From: Peloplasma aerotolerans
GTDB lineage: Bacteria; Bacillota_I; Bacilli_A; Acholeplasmatales; Acholeplasmataceae
Length of the DNA: 50,883 nucleotides
Reading direction: 5' to 3'
NCBI RefSeq assembly: GCF_030012175.1
Contig: NZ_JASCXW010000013.1
Span: forward strand, 1 to 50,883
The notes under the pieces: generated by a model
The model's input: the letters and a program-made list of their open reading frames with translations, nothing else
Told to the model about the DNA's origin: nothing
Databases searched by the model: none
Program-made: the position numbers and the translations under genes
In this document: positions 22,241 through 35,613 of the stretch, piece after piece
How the letters are laid out: the number at the start of each line of letters is the position of its first letter
Position numbering within the stretch: the first letter of the stretch is position 1

Positions 22241-22343
22241 TAATTGCTTACAGCGGACGCATTAGAAAACCGCCACTTTCGTGTTCGTTCCAACCCGACA
22301 TCCCATGGTTAGACACTTAACGCTTCCTAATTACTCTGCAATC
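22241..22343 (-). promoter_or_regulatory. Tetrahydrofolate (THF) riboswitch
   Basis: On the minus strand the conserved pieces occur in order: AGAGTA, GCGTTAAGTGT, ATGGGATGTC, GCGGT and GCGTCCGCT. P1 forms from ATTGC and GCAAT; P2 from ATTAGGAA and TTTCTAAT; P3 from CTAACC and GGTTGG; a further hairpin is capped by GAAA (CAC/GTG). These match the class of THF riboswitches described in Firmicutes and explain control of the folate importer downstream. Confidence 0.92.
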
Positions 22344-22382: not shown

Positions 22383-22407
22383 AAAAAATGACAATTTTTG
22401 TCATTTT
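22383..22407 (-). terminator. Terminator of ung
   Basis: Stem AAAATGACAA/TTGTCATTTT (22385-22394 and 22398-22407), followed by U on the minus strand. The ung stop lies at its base. Confidence 0.85.
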
Positions 22408-23056
22408 AAGTTAATGTCCAATCAATGGGTTTGATGTTATTCCTGATTAAGAAATCATTAGTTTTAGAAAATGGTTTAGATCCAAAAAAACCTCGATGTG
22501 CAGATAATGGAGAAGGATGTACCGATTTCAGTATATAATGTTTTCTATTGTTAATATAGGGTATAAACTTTTGTGCATGAGAACCCCATAAAATAAAGAC
22601 AACAGGTTGATCTTTTTCATTAATCTTTTTAACAACTTCTAAAGTAAACGATTCCCAACCTCTATTTTGATGACTCATGGGTTGATGTGCTTCTACAGTT
22701 AATACTGTGTTTAGCAATAAGACACCTTGTTTTGCCCATTTTGATAAGTTCCCAGTATTCGGATATGAAATACCTAAGTCATCAACAAGTTCTTTATATA
22801 TGTTTTTCAGACTCGGTGGATAGCTTCCTTGTTCAACACTAAAGGCTAATCCATGTGCTTGATTGATATTATGATAAGGATCTTGTCCGATAATTACCGC
22901 TTTGACGTCGTCATATGGTGTTAATTTAAAACAAGTCATCCGATTATCCTTTAAAGGTAATATTTGCTTAGTCGCATCTTCTTGTTTCAAAAATAAGACA
23001 AGTTGCTGAAAATAAGGTTTTTGAAGTTCTTCGTGAATCAAATCATTCCAAAACAT
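22406..23056 (-). CDS. ung: Uracil-DNA glycosylase
   Basis: Removes uracil from DNA, the first step of base excision repair. Family 1 motifs are complete: GQDPYH (catalytic Asp), NTVLTVE, VFILWGSHA and the leucine loop HPSPLSAHRGFFGSKPFS. The length of 216 is normal. The start lies four bases after the stop of the SipW-type gene upstream, so it is probably cotranscribed with it, though functionally unrelated. Confidence 0.97.
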   Translation of the reverse strand: MFWNDLIHEELQKPYFQQLVLFLKQEDATKQILPLKDNRMTCFKLTPYDDVKAVIIGQDPYHNINQAHGLAFSVEQGSYPPSLKNIYKELVDDLGISYPNTGNLSKWAKQGVLLLNTVLTVEAHQPMSHQNRGWESFTLEVVKKINEKDQPVVFILWGSHAQKFIPYINNRKHYILKSVHPSPLSAHRGFFGSKPFSKTNDFLIRNNIKPIDWTLT

Positions 23057-23060
23057 AAAT

Positions 23061-23618
23061 TTACTCCTTTTTATTCTTCTTTAATAAAGTGGCAATCGTA
23101 ACAATGATTGCAATATTTAATATAATCAATCCTAATAATATCGGATTTTGAATCAAAATTTTAAAGAAAATAATAATATATCCCACATATGCAATTTTAG
23201 ATGTAACCAACCCAATAATATCCTCGTCAGTAAAATTGCCCCACTGATCAGGTTGATTATTACTTAGGATTGACTTGTGAGAGATAGACTCATACATCCG
23301 TACACCATCTACTTTTTGAATAGAATAAATATAGTGTGTGACGATTTCCTTCTCCCCATTATTATTAATATCCATTTTGAAAGTTATAACATCTCCAACT
23401 TGTAAATCTTCTGGATCTACAGGCTTTACTATAAGAATATCGCCAATGTTATATAAAGGTTCCATACTATCAGTAATGACAACATAACTTCTAAAACCAA
23501 GAAGCTTAATCGTATGTTCAGGTGCAAATATCTGTATCAAGATAAAACCGCTTAATAAAGCAGTCATTAAATAAAATATCGCATTTAAAACCATCTTTTT
23601 GCTAACTACTTTTTCCAT
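23061..23618 (-). CDS. SipW-type signal peptidase I (first of two)
   Basis: A 185-residue membrane peptidase of the ER/SipW type. A helix at about 11-31 is followed by the catalytic Ser in ITDSMEP (Ser51) and a His in VTHYIYS (His95) where classical bacterial enzymes have Lys, then FTDEDIIGLV and a C-terminal helix pair (about 138-178). Such enzymes remove the signal peptides of TasA- and camelysin-like proteins, three of which lie 3-5 kb upstream. The ATG follows AAGGAGC. A strong terminator lies just upstream, so expression depends on read-through or an unseen promoter. Gene order suggests a SipW homologue, but substrate pairing is inference. Confidence 0.88.
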   Translation of the reverse strand: MEKVVSKKMVLNAIFYLMTALLSGFILIQIFAPEHTIKLLGFRSYVVITDSMEPLYNIGDILIVKPVDPEDLQVGDVITFKMDINNNGEKEIVTHYIYSIQKVDGVRMYESISHKSILSNNQPDQWGNFTDEDIIGLVTSKIAYVGYIIIFFKILIQNPILLGLIILNIAIIVTIATLLKKNKKE

Positions 23619-23636
23619 ATATGCTCCTTCAAATAA

Positions 23637-23664
23637 AATAAACCTCTCATGTAAAAGGTTTATT
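23637..23664 (-). terminator. Terminator before the first SipW gene
   Basis: Perfect 9-bp stem AATAAACCT/AGGTTTATT (23637-23645 and 23656-23664), then a U-rich tail on the minus strand. It covers the stop of the 200-aa gene. Confidence 0.85.
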
Positions 23665-24262
23665 TTTTATTTTCTTTAATATAAAAGACATAGATGATTG
23701 ATAGAATTAAACCTTGAACTGATGCCATCACAAGAAATCCTCTTAGATTCGATGACACATAATAGATTGTTCCTAAGAAAGACGCATCTTTAATATAAAC
23801 AAAATCTATGTCATCAATTGATGTTGTATTAGAAATGAATCCATCAAATGTCGTTTGTAACTCATTGAGTGATTCTCTTATTTCAACAACTTCTTCAACC
23901 CAATAAATATCAGTGCCAAAACGGCCATATATTAATATATTATCTCCGACTTTTAGGTCATCTAATTTCAATCTTTTAACGATAACAATTCTTGTACTTA
24001 ATTCTTCATCAAGTTCTTGATTATTAGGAACCGCTAAAACATTAGCTGTTCCAAGTAACCCGATGCCTCTATTTGGAAGAATCAATGGAAATGCAATGAA
24101 CATAGTGTGTAAAATAGCTAGACCAACAAATATCCAAAATATAGTTTTTTTATTTATTTTTATATTAAACTTTCTAACTTTTTTTTGGATATGTAGATCA
24201 GAAGTGACTTTTTGACTAGCTAATTGAGCCAGCAATTCTTCTGTCGATAAATAATTTGCCAA
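23660..24262 (-). CDS. Signal-peptidase-like membrane protein lacking catalytic residues
   Basis: A 200-residue protein between two SipW-type peptidases. It has a cytosolic Lys-rich N-terminus, a helix near 41-62, a soluble middle and a C-terminal helix near 172-192. The middle contains LKVGDNILIYGR (about 103-114), aligning with QVGDVITF and EEGDIITF of its neighbours, so it appears to share the S26-peptidase fold. Where they have SMEP it has ANVLAVPNNQE, and the THY histidine motif is absent (DIYWVEEVVEI follows instead). It is probably inactive as a protease and may act as a partner or substrate adaptor; that is inference. Starts with TTG (24260-24262), 12 bases after the upstream stop, with a weak binding site. 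Confidence 0.7.
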   Translation of the reverse strand: MANYLSTEELLAQLASQKVTSDLHIQKKVRKFNIKINKKTIFWIFVGLAILHTMFIAFPLILPNRGIGLLGTANVLAVPNNQELDEELSTRIVIVKRLKLDDLKVGDNILIYGRFGTDIYWVEEVVEIRESLNELQTTFDGFISNTTSIDDIDFVYIKDASFLGTIYYVSSNLRGFLVMASVQGLILSIIYVFYIKENKK

Positions 24263-24274
24263 GCTCTCACTTCC

Positions 24275-24841
24275 CTATTGTTCAATATTATCCTTATTCT
24301 CTTTCTTTCCTGACTTTACAATGACGATGATTGCTGCAATGACTAAAACATTAACCGATACAGCAGCAATACCAAATGGGCTTCTCAAAAAGGCAATAAA
24401 GACTCCAAGTTGAGGAATTCTAAAACCGTAAACTCCGATGATATCAGCATCTCGAAGAATCCATGTATCCGGAACTGTCCCATTATGTCTAATCGTTCGA
24501 TATATTTTTTCATCTTGTGAATTAACAGTTATTGAGTGTATGTAGTGTGTTATAACTTCTTTGGTTCCATCATAATCAATATCAGCCATAAAGGTTATGA
24601 TATCACCTTCTTCAAGTTTATCCAAATTTGGATTATAAACGATGATTAAATCATTTACATCTAAAACAGGCTCCATACTTTCTGTGATGACCACATAAGG
24701 TTTGAACTGAAAAACCTTAATGGTTGTATTCGGAATAAAGATTTCCAATAGAATATATAAAATCAGTAATCCCGATAACACAAAAAATAGAATTGAGCCT
24801 ACATGTTTCAATATGAGTTTAGTTTTATTGGATTCAGTCAC
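24275..24841 (-). CDS. SipW-type signal peptidase I (second of two)
   Basis: A 188-residue SipW/ER-type signal peptidase with a helix at about 16-36, the catalytic Ser in ITESMEP (Ser55), the His in ITHYIHS (His99), the RDADIIGVYG motif, and a C-terminal helix near 155-177. Same family as the gene at 23061-23618 but clearly diverged, so the two may prefer different substrates. It starts with GTG (24839-24841) after an AGGGGT site and has its own promoter, so it can be made apart from the riboswitch-controlled genes upstream. Confidence 0.88.
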   Translation of the reverse strand: MTESNKTKLILKHVGSILFFVLSGLLILYILLEIFIPNTTIKVFQFKPYVVITESMEPVLDVNDLIIVYNPNLDKLEEGDIITFMADIDYDGTKEVITHYIHSITVNSQDEKIYRTIRHNGTVPDTWILRDADIIGVYGFRIPQLGVFIAFLRSPFGIAAVSVNVLVIAAIIVIVKSGKKENKDNIEQ

Positions 24842-24942: not shown

Positions 24943-26523
24943 TTAGTTTGAGTATAGTTCCCAATATGACTCTGAACCCGTTTCACCAGGTATGATGTTT
25001 GTAGAAGTTGAGATTGCGATATAAGCAACATTATCATAAATTGCTATATCATTTGTTTGATATGTATTAAAACTTTGATAATAAAGGGTACCAATACGGT
25101 TCCATGCATTGTTTGCAGTTCCTGGTTCAACATTATTGTTTGCATTTGATGCATTAACAACTTTATACGCATAAAGACCAAAAAATGCATAATCATCTGA
25201 GACATAGGTGTTATACCATTGCCATTCTGACGTATTTACTTGATTCCATGCATTATATGCTGTACCTGGAGTATTAGCATTGGCATTGGTTAAGTTGACA
25301 ACTTTATATGGGTCACCATTATAGAATACATGATTATTTGCTTGATATGTATTATATATTTGATACTGATCAGTATCTACTCTATTCCAAGCATTATAAG
25401 ATGTACCCGGGGTATTTGCATTCGCATTGGTAACGTTTTGAACACGATAAACGCCTCCACTATAGAGTACATGATCATTTGCTGCGTATGTATTAAACCA
25501 TTGATACTCAGAAGTATCTACTCGATTCCATGCATTAGATGAAGTACCTGGTTCATTTGCATTAGCGTTGGTTGCATTCACAACTTGATATAAGTTACTA
25601 TTATGTAATACTAATTGTCCATTTGAGTATGTTCCAGATATAGACCAAACAGGCATGTTATAAGTATTCCATGCATTGCTTGATGGAGGTACACTACCAC
25701 CGGTTATTTTTCTTTTAGCTATATAGAAACTTCCGTTGTATCTTACAATATCATCTTTATTATATGCAGTATATGAGGTCCATTCATAACTTCCTACTTC
25801 AATCCAGTTAGAGCCAGTACCTGGTGTCTGATTGGTGTGAGAAGCAAGAGAACGATACAAAATACCATTATATAGAACATGATCACCTATTGCATATTGT
25901 GTGAAGTTGTTCCATATGACAGAACCGACTTGTCTCCAGTGTAATGAAGTTCCTGGAGTGTTTAGGTGTAGATTGTAATCTACAGCTGCTTGATATAATA
26001 ATCCATTATGGATAACATAATCACCAATTGTGTAAGTTCCACCTGATGACCAAACAATTGAATACATGTTAAACCATCCCGCTCCATTTGTTCCTGGTTC
26101 TGCACCATTCGCAACCCCTGCATTTATGACGCGATAGAACATACCATTGTGTAGCACAACATCGTTTAGATAGTATGTGTTGGTAGGTTTGTATTCATGA
26201 TAGATTTCATTAAATGCTCCATATGGTGCATTTGATGGTGGTGGTGCTGAAGCATAGTCTCCACTGATGATTTGATAGATTTTACCGTCATACCAAACAT
26301 AGTCACTCACAGCATAGGTATCTCCTTGAACATATTCAGGAATACCTTGTGGTGGACCTACAGCAAGTCCCCATTCACCAATAGGGACTTCAGCAAATGC
26401 TGATTGTTGACTTCCACTTATGTTAGATGCCCAAAAAGCATAAGTATAGGAAGCGGTATATGAAAATAACGAAACAAGCAACATTAAAACAGCAAATCTA
26501 AGCGTATTTTTTCTTCTTTTCAT
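24943..26523 (-). CDS. Exported protein of ten CBM5/12-like carbohydrate-binding repeats
   Basis: A 526-residue secreted protein. The N-terminus is a SipW-type signal (basic MKRRKNTLR, hydrophobic core, then YTYAFWASN around residues 26-34). The rest is ten modules of about 42-50 residues with the pattern W or Y, then Y..GD.V.YNG..Y......PG....W, the aromatic-rich fold of chitin/cellulose-binding families 5 and 12. Modules 6-10 share a NATNANANTPGT-type loop. No enzyme domain, no C-terminal anchor and no LPxTG motif are present, so it is a multivalent binder rather than an enzyme. Ligand unknown. The start follows GGAGGTGATTAT. It is third in the riboswitch operon, after a hairpin that could limit read-through. 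Confidence 0.85.
   Translation of the reverse strand: MKRRKNTLRFAVLMLLVSLFSYTASYTYAFWASNISGSQQSAFAEVPIGEWGLAVGPPQGIPEYVQGDTYAVSDYVWYDGKIYQIISGDYASAPPPSNAPYGAFNEIYHEYKPTNTYYLNDVVLHNGMFYRVINAGVANGAEPGTNGAGWFNMYSIVWSSGGTYTIGDYVIHNGLLYQAAVDYNLHLNTPGTSLHWRQVGSVIWNNFTQYAIGDHVLYNGILYRSLASHTNQTPGTGSNWIEVGSYEWTSYTAYNKDDIVRYNGSFYIAKRKITGGSVPPSSNAWNTYNMPVWSISGTYSNGQLVLHNSNLYQVVNATNANANEPGTSSNAWNRVDTSEYQWFNTYAANDHVLYSGGVYRVQNVTNANANTPGTSYNAWNRVDTDQYQIYNTYQANNHVFYNGDPYKVVNLTNANANTPGTAYNAWNQVNTSEWQWYNTYVSDDYAFFGLYAYKVVNASNANNNVEPGTANNAWNRIGTLYYQSFNTYQTNDIAIYDNVAYIAISTSTNIIPGETGSESYWELYSN
24950..26385 (-). repeat. Ten degenerate protein-coding repeat modules of about 140 bp
   Basis: The ten modules of the exported binder are also visible as DNA repeats, strongest in the 3' half (24950-25600), where the unit with NANANTPGT and AWNRVD recurs at roughly 141-bp spacing. 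This is a coding repeat, not an interspersed array. Confidence 0.8.
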
Positions 26524-26597: not shown

Positions 26598-27131
26598 TTA
26601 TTCGACTTGTTGATCGATTGAGAAAGTTAAGTCAAATGTTATTTCTTTTCCTGCAACTGCTGTATACTGTTCTTGATTAGATGGTTCAGACATTGTAATA
26701 ACAAAATAGAATGTTACTTGTGCACCTAAAGCAATTGTTTCTGGATTGCCGGATTTTTCTACAACAGAAATCAATGTATATGGGTTTTCTACTCTATCCA
26801 CTTCGATATTCTCGATAAGAACTGAAACATCAGCATCCGCAATTCCAGTTAAAGCAGGATCATTAGTCCAAGTTACTATAAATGAAATTTCAATTGAATT
26901 ACTTTGACCTTCTAACGGTGTAACAGTCGTAGGTACTAACACTTCAGTATCTCCACCTTGTGCACCTATTGCAACTTGAATAGTAACAGGTTCTCCTTCT
27001 CCAATTTGAACGCTACCAGGAATATCATTTACACCATCTGTAATTGTTCCTGCCCAAAATGCATAAGTGAATCCTGATACCACTAATGCCAACATAACTA
27101 ATAAACCAATTACTAAATTTTTTTGTCTCAT
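26598..27131 (-). CDS. SipW-dependent exported protein, TasA/camelysin-like
   Basis: A 177-residue protein with signal helix at about 6-20 and the SipW-type junction FTYAFWAG (residues 21-28; Trp26). The mature part is acidic and appears all-beta (SIEISFIVTWTNDP, VTFYFVITMSEP, ITFDLTFSI), as in the TasA/camelysin group of fibre or surface proteins. It contains the short GSVQIGEGEP block after the cleavage region, echoed as EVPIGEW in the repeat protein. No metal-binding HEXXH motif is seen, so a protease role is not claimed. Second gene of the operon. The family call rests on the signal and beta content, not on a residue-level match. Confidence 0.7.
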   Translation of the reverse strand: MRQKNLVIGLLVMLALVVSGFTYAFWAGTITDGVNDIPGSVQIGEGEPVTIQVAIGAQGGDTEVLVPTTVTPLEGQSNSIEISFIVTWTNDPALTGIADADVSVLIENIEVDRVENPYTLISVVEKSGNPETIALGAQVTFYFVITMSEPSNQEQYTAVAGKEITFDLTFSIDQQVE

Positions 27132-27178: not shown

Positions 27179-27760
27179 TTATTCTACTTCTTTAGGTTCG
27201 ACCCTAAAACTAATTGTAAAACTTATGTCTTCTCCCTTAATTGTGTTATATGCCAACTGTGAATCATCAACATTAACCAACTCAAGATCCAATCCTTTTT
27301 CAACTGCCTCATCATGATCGATAGGCTCTAACAACCTTACAACGATTGTTATTGTAACAACACTATTGAAAAGCTCATTAACAAAATAATCTTTTGCATT
27401 TCCAATTGAAATGTCAACCAAATGTGAATACTCATCCGATTCACCAATTAAAACATCTTTTGCTTCTACAATGAGATTCATGCTTTGAACTAATGTTTTA
27501 TCGACACTCACATCGTATTCAAAGACTACTTGATCAACTTCACCTACGACATATACACGTCCTTCGGGTACCAGTCTTCCAGTAAATTCATCATGTTGAG
27601 CTTCGACGACAAGACTTGCGTCTTCTCCTTCAAATCGAATCACAACATTACCAATCTGTGATACGTCCTGCCAATAAGCGAATGCTGCCGAGGATGTAAA
27701 ACCTAATGCAATAACTAACATTGTAATAATTAAATATGGTATTGATTTTTTTCCTAGCAA
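27179..27760 (-). CDS. SipW-dependent exported protein, TasA/camelysin-like (operon head)
   Basis: A 193-residue protein. Hydrophobic signal at about 7-27, with the SipW-type AFAYWQD (residues 26-32; Trp30). The mature part is acidic and beta-rich (VVFEYDVSVD, VVTITIVVRLLEP, ISFTISFRVEP), ending in the same ITF/ISF-strand pattern as the next gene. It starts with TTG (27758-27760), seven bases after a perfect AAGGAGG site, which decides the start. It is the first gene after the c-di-GMP riboswitch and terminator. A structural or adhesive surface subunit is the likeliest role; direct evidence is lacking. Confidence 0.7.
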   Translation of the reverse strand: MLGKKSIPYLIITMLVIALGFTSSAAFAYWQDVSQIGNVVIRFEGEDASLVVEAQHDEFTGRLVPEGRVYVVGEVDQVVFEYDVSVDKTLVQSMNLIVEAKDVLIGESDEYSHLVDISIGNAKDYFVNELFNSVVTITIVVRLLEPIDHDEAVEKGLDLELVNVDDSQLAYNTIKGEDISFTISFRVEPKEVE

Positions 27761-27781: not shown

Positions 27782-27814
27782 AAAAAAGTCAACGTAGATA
27801 TCCCACGTCAACTT
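27782..27814 (-). terminator. Riboswitch-linked intrinsic terminator
   Basis: Minus-strand AAGUUGACGU (27805-27814) pairs fully, with two G-U wobbles, to ACGUUGACUU (27786-27795) across a 9-nt loop, followed by U6. It lies between the c-di-GMP aptamer and the first gene of the operon, so it is the probable output stage. Confidence 0.85.
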
Positions 27815-27883: not shown

Positions 27884-27968
27884 CTAAATGACAACTGGCT
27901 ACCTTTTCTTAGGCCCTATAGCTTTGCGTCCTTAAGTTCCCTTAAGTTTGCCTTTAACATTTGTTTAG
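27884..27968 (-). promoter_or_regulatory. Cyclic-di-GMP-I riboswitch (GEMM-I)
   Basis: On the minus strand the family core occurs in order: GGCAAAC, a hairpin CTTAAG-GGAA-CTTAAG whose loop is a GNRA tetraloop, GGACGCAAAGC, GGGCCTAAG (tetraloop receptor) and GGTAGCC. P1 closes with CTAAACAA pairing to TTG and TTTAG around a 3-nt bulge. These features are diagnostic of GEMM-I. Between aptamer and terminator is another imperfect hairpin (27851-27885) overlapping the P1 3' end. Whether ligand turns the operon on or off cannot be read with certainty. Confidence 0.93.
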
Positions 27969-27996: not shown

Positions 27997-28025
27997 ATTA
28001 TATAACACATGTCCTGCTGTGTCAA
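27997..28025 (-). promoter_or_regulatory. Consensus sigmaA promoter of the riboswitch operon
   Basis: Minus-strand -35 TTGACA (28020-28025), exactly 17 nt, -10 TATAAT (27997-28002). A perfect consensus, which implies that control is mainly by the RNA downstream. Confidence 0.92.
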
Positions 28026-34242: not shown

Positions 34243-34261
34243 TTATTGATGTATAATAAAT

Positions 34262-34472
34262 TATGCGATGATTAGGAAATAATTCACTAAAAATCTATCT
34301 AAAGAGAGTTGGCATGGTGGAAACCAACGTTAGATTGTGAATGATTGGGCCCTATGAGCATAAAGTAAGTCGGCTATAACGACATTGAGGGCTAGAGTTT
34401 TCTCTAGAACTAAGGTGGCACCGCGTAAACATTTACGTCCTTAGATTTTTTATCTAAGGGCGTTTTTAATTT
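34262..34472 (+). promoter_or_regulatory. Tryptophan T-box leader of trpS
   Basis: The T-box core AAGGTGGCACCGCG is at 34412-34425; stem I precedes it with the specifier codon TGG (34346-34348, in the GATTGGGCC loop). The terminator stem CGTCCTTAGAT/ATCTAAGGGCG, then U5, lies at 34435-34472. The tRNA-end pairing bases are UGGC, which fit a G discriminator as in tRNA-Trp. Confidence 0.95.
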
Positions 34473-34494: not shown

Positions 34495-35613
34495 ATGGCA
34501 ACTACAACCAAATCTGTAAAAAAAACTGAAACCAAACCAGCAAGTAAAACAACAAAGAATCCTAAGAAGAAAATTAGAATTGTTCCACCAACGATTGCTG
34601 TCATCCCAGATAAGACAAAAAGACTTGTCTCTGGCATTAAGCCAACAGGACAACTCACATTAGGCAATTATATTGGTGCACTAAGACAGTTCGTTAAGTT
34701 ACAAGACGAATTAAGTGATCATGAACACTTCATTTTTATTGCTGACCTTCATGCAATTACGACTCCTCAAGACAGATTAGAACTCAGAAAAAATATTAGA
34801 AGTGTTGCTGCTTTATATATTGCCTGTGGTTTAGACCCTGATAAAGTTAATCTTTTTATTCAATCTGAGGTAGCTGAACATGCTGCTTTAGGATATATTA
34901 TGGAGTCAACAGCCTATGTTGGTGAGATGGAGAGAATGACACAGTATAAGGACAAAAAAGGCAAGCAAACAGATGGCATTAGAACTTCTTTATTAACATA
35001 TCCTGCTTTAATGGCTGCAGATATTTTATTGTATGATGCAAATGTTGTTCCTATAGGTGATGATCAAAAACAACATTTAGAATTAACAAGAAATTTGGCT
35101 ACTCGCTTTAACAATTTATATGGTGAAACATTTGTTGTTCCAGAAGGATTCTTTCCTGAAACAGGCGCTAGAATCAAATCTTTAACTGATCCAACGAAAA
35201 AGATGGATAAGAGTGGCGATAATGAAAAATCATATATCTTGTTACTAGATGATTTAGGTCTTATAAGAAGAAAGATTAAGAGTGCTGTTACAGATTCTAA
35301 TGGCATTATTAAGTATGAGGTTAGAAATAAACCTGGTATATCAAATTTGTTGCAAATATATTCATCGTTAACTGATGTTTCAGTCAAAGATTTAGAAAAG
35401 AAGTATGCTGAATCTGATTATGCAACATTTAAAGATGATTTAGCAGAAATTGTTGTTGATGCGATAAGACCCATTCAACAAAAGTATTTTGAAATTATCA
35501 ATGATACAAAACTTGATGAGATTCTTAATCAAGGTGCTGAACGTGCAAAGGTTATTGCCTCTAGAAAGATGTTTAAAGTTTATAAGAAGCTTGGATTAGG
35601 TAGAATTAGATAA
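34495..35613 (+). CDS. trpS: Tryptophanyl-tRNA synthetase with Lys-rich N-terminal extension
   Basis: Class I synthetase charging tRNA-Trp. The HIGH-type motif is in SGIKPTGQLTLGNYIGA, and KMDKSG is the KMSKS loop. The ATG at 34495 follows a perfect AGGAGG site, so the first about 42 residues are real coding sequence: a Lys/Thr-rich stretch (TTTKSVKKTETKPASKTTKN, then PKKKIRIVPP) that other bacterial TrpRS lack, since they begin near RLVSGIKPTG. Length 372 against the usual 325-340. Regulated by the T-box above. Confidence 0.95.
   Translation: MATTTKSVKKTETKPASKTTKNPKKKIRIVPPTIAVIPDKTKRLVSGIKPTGQLTLGNYIGALRQFVKLQDELSDHEHFIFIADLHAITTPQDRLELRKNIRSVAALYIACGLDPDKVNLFIQSEVAEHAALGYIMESTAYVGEMERMTQYKDKKGKQTDGIRTSLLTYPALMAADILLYDANVVPIGDDQKQHLELTRNLATRFNNLYGETFVVPEGFFPETGARIKSLTDPTKKMDKSGDNEKSYILLLDDLGLIRRKIKSAVTDSNGIIKYEVRNKPGISNLLQIYSSLTDVSVKDLEKKYAESDYATFKDDLAEIVVDAIRPIQQKYFEIINDTKLDEILNQGAERAKVIASRKMFKVYKKLGLGRIR

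Follow-up and report, generated by a model that had tools for sequence, protein, structure and literature searches.

Most of what is known about signal peptidase folds that have lost their catalytic residues comes from SipA-type pilus loci. The closest precedent for the protein described here is SipA of S. pyogenes (FCT pilus locus; PDB 4n31), a dead signal peptidase fold with Asp and Gly in place of Ser and Lys that retains an intact peptide cleft and is essential for pilus assembly (PMC4049620). SipW-type signal peptidases are encoded in operons together with their clients, as in tapA-sipW-tasA of B. subtilis and sipW-bsaA of C. perfringens (PMC4551309, PMC7395162).

We have analyzed a 50,883-nucleotide stretch of DNA (contig NZ_JASCXW010000013.1, hereafter the window) from Peloplasma aerotolerans, an environmental bacterium without a cell wall, in which a gene for a membrane protein, here called M, lies between two sipW genes, SipW-A and SipW-B. 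Like M, SipA has a signal peptidase-related domain that has lost its catalytic residues and is encoded with the surface subunits served, although its fold match to M is middling. SipA is of the Ser-Lys bacterial type and belongs to a sortase pilus locus, whereas M is a paralogue of the SipW/ER type (Ser-His), has two transmembrane segments, adjoins SipW peptidases and in some lineages is fused to a DNA-binding domain. The tapA-sipW-tasA and sipW-bsaA operons are of the same kind as the M cassette in that they carry SipW-type clients (PMC7395162, PMC4551309). M shares a homologous ectodomain and a similar membrane topology with SipW/archaeal-type signal peptidase I (TIGR02228, NF046067), but the Ser-His pair is missing from all 40 M proteins and no family model recognizes the window protein. 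Within the SipW/SEC11 type, M represents a lineage of its own that has not been catalogued, and its gene order, c-di-GMP riboswitch and natural fusions lead to testable roles. A literature search of partial coverage, and hence weak as evidence for novelty, returned no paper joining a catalytically inactive signal peptidase, SipW and operon; judged by title and the start of the abstract, none of the papers on c-di-GMP, riboswitches and SipW or on Acholeplasma and c-di-GMP describes this system.

Organization and c-di-GMP control of the cassette

The cassette of the window and its leader consist of the following features, listed in the direction of transcription.

27997..28025, minus strand: sigma-70-type promoter (TTGACA-17-TATAAT, consensus 12/12), upstream of the riboswitch
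27887..27962, minus strand: c-di-GMP-I riboswitch aptamer (RF01051, 66.2 bits, E 7.6e-11) in the operon leader
27786..27814, minus strand: terminator-like hairpin and T run after the aptamer, likely the expression platform
27179..27760, minus strand: client 1, 193 aa, first cassette gene; predicted SipW client with signal peptide ..FTSSAAFAYWQD; TIGR04088 match sub-threshold only
26598..27131, minus strand: client 2, 177 aa, conserved second cassette gene; predicted SipW client with signal peptide ..SGFTYAFWA
24943..26523, minus strand: secreted CBM5/12 protein, 526 aa, with a SipW-type signal peptide and six CBM5/12-like repeats
24275..24841, minus strand: SipW-A, 188 aa, GTG start, predicted active S26B signal peptidase (S55 and H99)
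23660..24262, minus strand: M, the middle protein, 200 aa, TTG start, frame open and intact
23061..23618, minus strand: SipW-B, 185 aa, predicted active S26B signal peptidase (S51 and H95)
22406..23056, minus strand: ung (uracil-DNA glycosylase), 4 nt after SipW-B

Client 1, client 2, CBM protein, SipW-A, M and SipW-B is the usual gene order, and at most loci M stands between both sipW genes with short gaps or overlaps, the gaps in the window being 12 nt from SipW-A to M and 41 nt from M to SipW-B. The ung gene follows the cassette in the window's genus, g15 and g4. Departures from this order include a locus with only SipW-A and M (genome G271), one with only M and SipW-B (G335) and one in which a dead SipW-A and M occur together while a Ser/His-bearing SipW is encoded elsewhere (G029). 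In genome G227 a sipW pair without M lies at 225-226 kb, and an M gene fused to a helix-turn-helix domain is found at 147 kb on the same contig, about 78 kb away. The neighbors of M are SipW-type clients, sipW genes and ung, with no sortase recognized in the cassette. A sequence comparison of the 177-aa client with solved TasA/CalY structures gave no match; by likeness to tapA-sipW-tasA and sipW-bsaA, the cassette clients may form surface fibers or a matrix.

A c-di-GMP-I riboswitch is located upstream of the cassette at all 18 loci with complete leaders, namely the window, L061, L064, L079, L080, L084, L118-L123, L125, L127-L130 and L151, with three such riboswitches in tandem at L119 (G335). 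Additionally, the genome that contains the window yields 18 GGDEF matches along with five RF01051 riboswitches. Together these observations make it very likely that this is a c-di-GMP-controlled export cassette.

M is a SipW paralogue without catalytic residues

The two flanking peptidases have the residues expected of working enzymes, with S55 of SipW-A located within TESMEP and H99 within ITHY, and with S51 of SipW-B located within TDSMEP and H95 within VTHY. Their TIGR02228 (signal peptidase I) scores of 64.8 bits for SipW-A and 73.6 bits for SipW-B exceed the NCBIfam cut-off of 51.85, and both are predicted to be active from their Ser and His residues. A profile of SipW-B relatives also matches human SEC11A/C (E ~2e-10).

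M is predicted to have a short cytosolic N-terminus, a first transmembrane segment (TM1, aa 38-61), a beta-rich ectodomain (aa ~66-160) and a second transmembrane segment (TM2, aa 173-199). The N-terminal cytosolic segment (STEELLAQL; TTEELL) is conserved in most M proteins of the window protein's family, a feature that the first-pass annotation had left out. Scans against Pfam and NCBIfam gave zero matches for the window protein, which falls below every curated S26B/SipW family threshold, and domain scans detected no DNA-binding domain in its polypeptide. PNNQELDE occupies the position of SMEP, YWVEE that of THY, and the LKVGDNILIY stretch pairs in alignment with LEEGDIITF and LQVGDVITF of the SipW proteins. 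The first-pass annotation had described this intact reading frame as a signal peptidase look-alike that lacks the catalytic Ser and His yet keeps the LKVGDNILIY region and both end helices, and the alignment and transmembrane predictions bear this description out. Its statement that M sits between two active paralogues fits the window, where both neighbors carry Ser and His and activity is predicted, but this arrangement is not invariant as SipW-A is dead in a sister clade and a single sipW gene adjoins M at some loci.

A joint alignment of 38 SipW-A, 40 M and 36 SipW-B sequences indicates that 36/36 SipW-B and 28/38 SipW-A proteins retain both Ser and His, compared with 0/40 M proteins. The SMEP box is absent from all 40 M sequences, which have a segment with xN/D-Q-E/D in its place, and none of the 40 has His at the aligned column, the register of which is uncertain (Y120, W121 or E123). 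A divergent member, L022, has WVHRVISID near the His column without the Ser, which favors E123 as the His counterpart. A lone Ser is present at the Ser column in one of the 40 (L099), again without His. There is also no conserved Ser/Lys, Ser/His or Cys pair elsewhere in the ectodomain across the 40 M sequences, so that the Ser/Lys pair that the first-pass annotation had named as evidence against its reading was looked for and does not appear there as a conserved feature. Conserved residues of M include W121 and G106 (37/40 each) and Q82 (36/40), and its most conserved element is strand 120-129, formerly the His-bearing strand, which suggests that the cleft has been kept in an altered form.

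Loss of the catalytic pair is not confined to M. SipW-A also lacks Ser and His in G017, G022, G035 and g15 genomes (T/Y or Q/A), so that cassettes of this sister clade have two dead peptidases, with SipW-B alone predicted to be catalytic. Dead but conserved SipW-A proteins, mostly with Thr and Tyr, were seen at L018, L019, L020, L021, L050, L052, L053 and L055, and also at L022.

Homology and predicted fold of M

Whole-length profiles built from 22 M sequences match SipW-A with E 1.7e-10 and SipW-B with E 3.7e-13. Because membrane helices could drive such a match, the ectodomains were also compared alone using hhalign, which gave E 7.7e-7 for M against SipW-B and 2.2e-6 against SipW-A, with reversed profiles as controls giving 0.026 and 0.15, respectively. 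SipW-B is also the next-best match of the M profile in its own genome, and ordinary SipW proteins are matched in other genomes. Profile comparison thus identifies the M ectodomain as a homologue of SipW at the level of the S26 clan.

In an AlphaFold model of M (pLDDT 82, pTM 0.62), an N-terminal helix is followed by TM1 at 38-61, seven strands within 72-159 and TM2 at 173-199. After VIA re-alignment against the PDB, the top rows for the model include LexA (Z 6.9), human SPC-C (6.6) and SpsB (6.5), all values below 7 that Tudor domains reach alike. The match to SipA (4n31) has Z 6.7 over 83 residues at 3.1 A, also a score shared with Tudor domains. As a control, a SipW-A model gave Z 10.7 with SPC-C and 9.9 with SipA. 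Foldseek alone ranked chromatin and Tudor/SH3-like domains first for M with E >0.02, and the S24/S26 rows came mostly from VIA. Searching PDB sequences with the M profile did not retrieve any S26 chain; the hits were a designed protein, segments of membrane helices and a weakly matching Tudor domain. The predicted fold of M is compatible with S24/S26, at Z <7 and mixed with Tudor domains. The unrelated fold that the first-pass annotation had named as evidence against its reading was not seen, in a comparison that places S24/S26 entries among the best PDB rows but with scores that Tudor domains equal.

Of the weak A5 matches in other genomes (E 1e-8 to 1e-14), the ones examined, L108-L113, proved to be ordinary SipW proteins that have Ser/His, and they were left out of the M count. 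The 500-aa proteins L058 and L060 are unrelated to M, their match being confined to the N-terminal helix and transmembrane segment.

Distribution, phylogeny and selection

Of the 20 genomes of the window's genus, 18 encode M, and a 19th contains an N-terminal fragment at a contig edge. Elsewhere in its own family M occurs in g15 (5/5 genomes), g4 (2/2) and g11 (1/8), and three more families of the class (f12, f16 and f24) carry it, making four in all. The named records, obtained by a contig search with a SipW-A alignment, belong to Acholeplasmataceae and to Candidatus Izemoplasma metagenome-assembled genomes, together with some labeled Bacillales or Clostridia. A pattern search of viral contigs found no relative. 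Loci with SipW and a CBM-type neighbor in some related genomes, such as G070, have no detectable M, which indicates that M is not universally needed.

In the phylogeny M forms one clade (support 100/100) apart from SipW-A and SipW-B, with long branches that denote faster divergence in some members. Nine close pairs of M sequences have dN/dS values of 0.065-0.22 and a tenth has 0.30, with dS near saturation in some, and these values are similar to those of SipW-A and SipW-B. Recurrence of the same pattern in 40 middle proteins together with purifying selection makes it more than chance. The conservation in related genomes that the first-pass annotation had asked about is evident from intact frames in four families and a dN/dS of ~0.1, and profile homology, membership of a single clade, conservation and dN/dS all uphold its view of a dead S26-type paralogue kept intact. 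These data support the conclusion that M is an ancient, catalytically dead SipW paralogue of single origin that is under purifying selection.

Fusions of M to DNA-binding domains

Four M proteins are joined to a recognizable DNA-binding domain.

L078 2080-3066, plus strand: XRE-M
L080 6686-7690, plus strand: XRE-M
L098 1501-2415, minus strand: XRE-M
L099 1024-2163, minus strand: M-HU

In three the added domain is an XRE helix-turn-helix at the N-terminus (HTH_3; E 1.5e-13 to 5.9e-18), while the protein of L099 (G376) has a C-terminal HU-type domain after TM2 (PF00216, E 5.9e-18). The XRE forms constitute one clade (support 99/96), so there have been two independent gains in all, both of a DNA-binding domain, and about 36 of the 40 M proteins have none. 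The XRE-M genes of L078 and L080 have their own upstream gap of 110-130 nt, and a search around the displaced XRE-M gene (L117) detected no c-di-GMP-I riboswitch. A comparison of sequences upstream of XRE-M genes and cassettes revealed no shared operator, only the riboswitch core and A/T-rich words.

The XRE forms resemble the S24 repressors LexA and CI in joining a helix-turn-helix to a domain of the S24/S26 fold. However, LexA is soluble and self-cleaving with a Ser-Lys pair, whereas XRE-M is membrane-spanning and without catalytic residues. XRE-M also resembles CadC/ToxR and RodZ, which have a cytosolic helix-turn-helix, a transmembrane segment and an extracellular domain. The outer domains of those proteins are not known to be signal peptidase-like, and only a minority of M proteins have the helix-turn-helix. 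Given the fusions and the separation from the sipW pair in G227, sensing or regulation is no less plausible for M than the possible role of adaptor, chaperone or inhibitor put forward in the first-pass annotation. A signaling role is favored by the fusions, at least in the lineages that bear them.

Proposed role of M

The explanation that we consider probable is that M is a noncatalytic pseudopeptidase that binds clients or partners, serves c-di-GMP-controlled SipW-type surface-protein export and in at least some lineages is coupled to the cytoplasm. M would be anchored by its two membrane helices with an ectodomain that keeps the SipW fold, and this ectodomain probably still binds either SipW clients (the fibre-like subunits and the CBM protein) or SipW peptidases. 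Binding would occur through a remodeled cleft with Gln82 and Trp121/Glu123 where Ser and His once were. M would be made together with clients and peptidases under one operon leader with a c-di-GMP riboswitch, a co-production that points to service in a dedicated surface-protein export system. Binding may be coupled to the cytoplasmic side by XRE or HU in some lineages and by the short conserved TTEELL in that of the window. We infer client or partner binding, a surface-matrix role and coupling across the membrane from these features. The likelihoods given to this explanation and to the sensor, assembly and heterocomplex alternatives below overlap because the latter are narrower versions of it.

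With less probability, M could be primarily a transmembrane sensor and regulator. Its ectodomain would bind client signal peptides, whether unprocessed or free, and M would signal this occupancy inward as feedback on cassette expression, either by direct DNA binding (XRE and HU forms) or via a partner (short-tailed forms). Two unrelated DNA-binding domains fused at opposite ends of M, the separate upstream gap of XRE-M and its distance from the sipW pair in G227 would fit such a role, but there are only two independent fusions, the large majority of M proteins have no such domain and no shared operator was found upstream of XRE-M genes and cassettes. A further objection is that an XRE domain may bind protein instead, as that of RodZ does. 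Slightly more doubtful is the specific version in which the dead SipW domain is a membrane receptor that senses the flux of secretion clients and, through linked DNA- or partner-binding cytoplasmic modules, feeds back on the c-di-GMP-controlled export operon in wall-less and related bacteria. A role as a SipA-like assembly factor that holds clients at the membrane surface and promotes polymerization or anchoring of surface fibers, which would be useful to a wall-less cell without sortase anchoring, we consider rather unlikely. Pilus assembly requires SipA (PMC4049620), which ranks with the best structural matches of the M model, and the predicted clients are encoded in the same operon; however, fiber formation is putative, the clients match no solved TasA/CalY by sequence and the DNA-binding fusions would be left unexplained.

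Less likely again is a SipW heterocomplex in which M is a structural or allosteric subunit. A parallel is offered by the eukaryotic signal peptidase complex, in which noncatalytic partners stand beside a catalytic subunit, SEC11, that is homologous to SipW-B, though M differs from those partners in being a dead paralogue of the catalytic subunit and an M-SipW complex is putative. The position of M between both sipW genes and the sister clade in which inactive SipW-A leaves one predicted active subunit are in accord with a heterocomplex, whereas the loci with M beside SipW-A only (G271), beside SipW-B only (G335) or away from both (G227) argue against it. That M is still a protease with another nucleophile is very improbable. 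Residue 138 is Thr or Ser in 39 of 40 M proteins, but SipW strands have Thr at a like place, so T138 is probably structural, and the ectodomain has no conserved Ser/Lys/His/Cys pair, the Ser column holding only the lone Ser of L099, without His. The faster divergence of some members might be read as decay of a functionless duplicate, a reading with a negligible chance of being correct that we rule out given the single clade, the intact frames across four families and the low dN/dS. As a client- or partner-binding pseudopeptidase, M suggests that the signal peptidase fold can be reused for client binding or sensing, and that a dedicated c-di-GMP-controlled system for surface-protein export may operate in Acholeplasmataceae-like wall-less bacteria.

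Additional features of the window and related loci

Next to cassettes outside of Acholeplasmataceae lies a gene for a small secreted protein that belongs to no known family and in most cases has a c-di-GMP-I riboswitch of its own.

L118 9960-10472, minus strand: small secreted protein
L121 4943-5476, plus strand: small secreted protein
L122 9361-9861, minus strand: small secreted protein
L125 3051-3551, plus strand: small secreted protein
L151 5416-6021, plus strand: small secreted protein

The genome that contains the window has a second SipW-type locus (G000:C45, 20.6-41 kb; L158, L159) with three further SipW-like genes, all retaining Ser and His. This second locus also encodes many secreted proteins whose signal peptides are similar, as well as ATPase-like proteins, and contains three c-di-GMP-I riboswitches. 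Within the window, a hairpin between the M and SipW-B genes (23635-23670, minus strand, z -2.6) may be an attenuator or processing site. Downstream of ung, a THF riboswitch (22249-22340, minus strand) precedes a membrane protein gene (22241-21678), and such a riboswitch is also present at L061, L064, L128 and L129. Finally, a T-box leader (34259-34445, plus strand, 100.8 bits) is located before the open reading frame at 34495.
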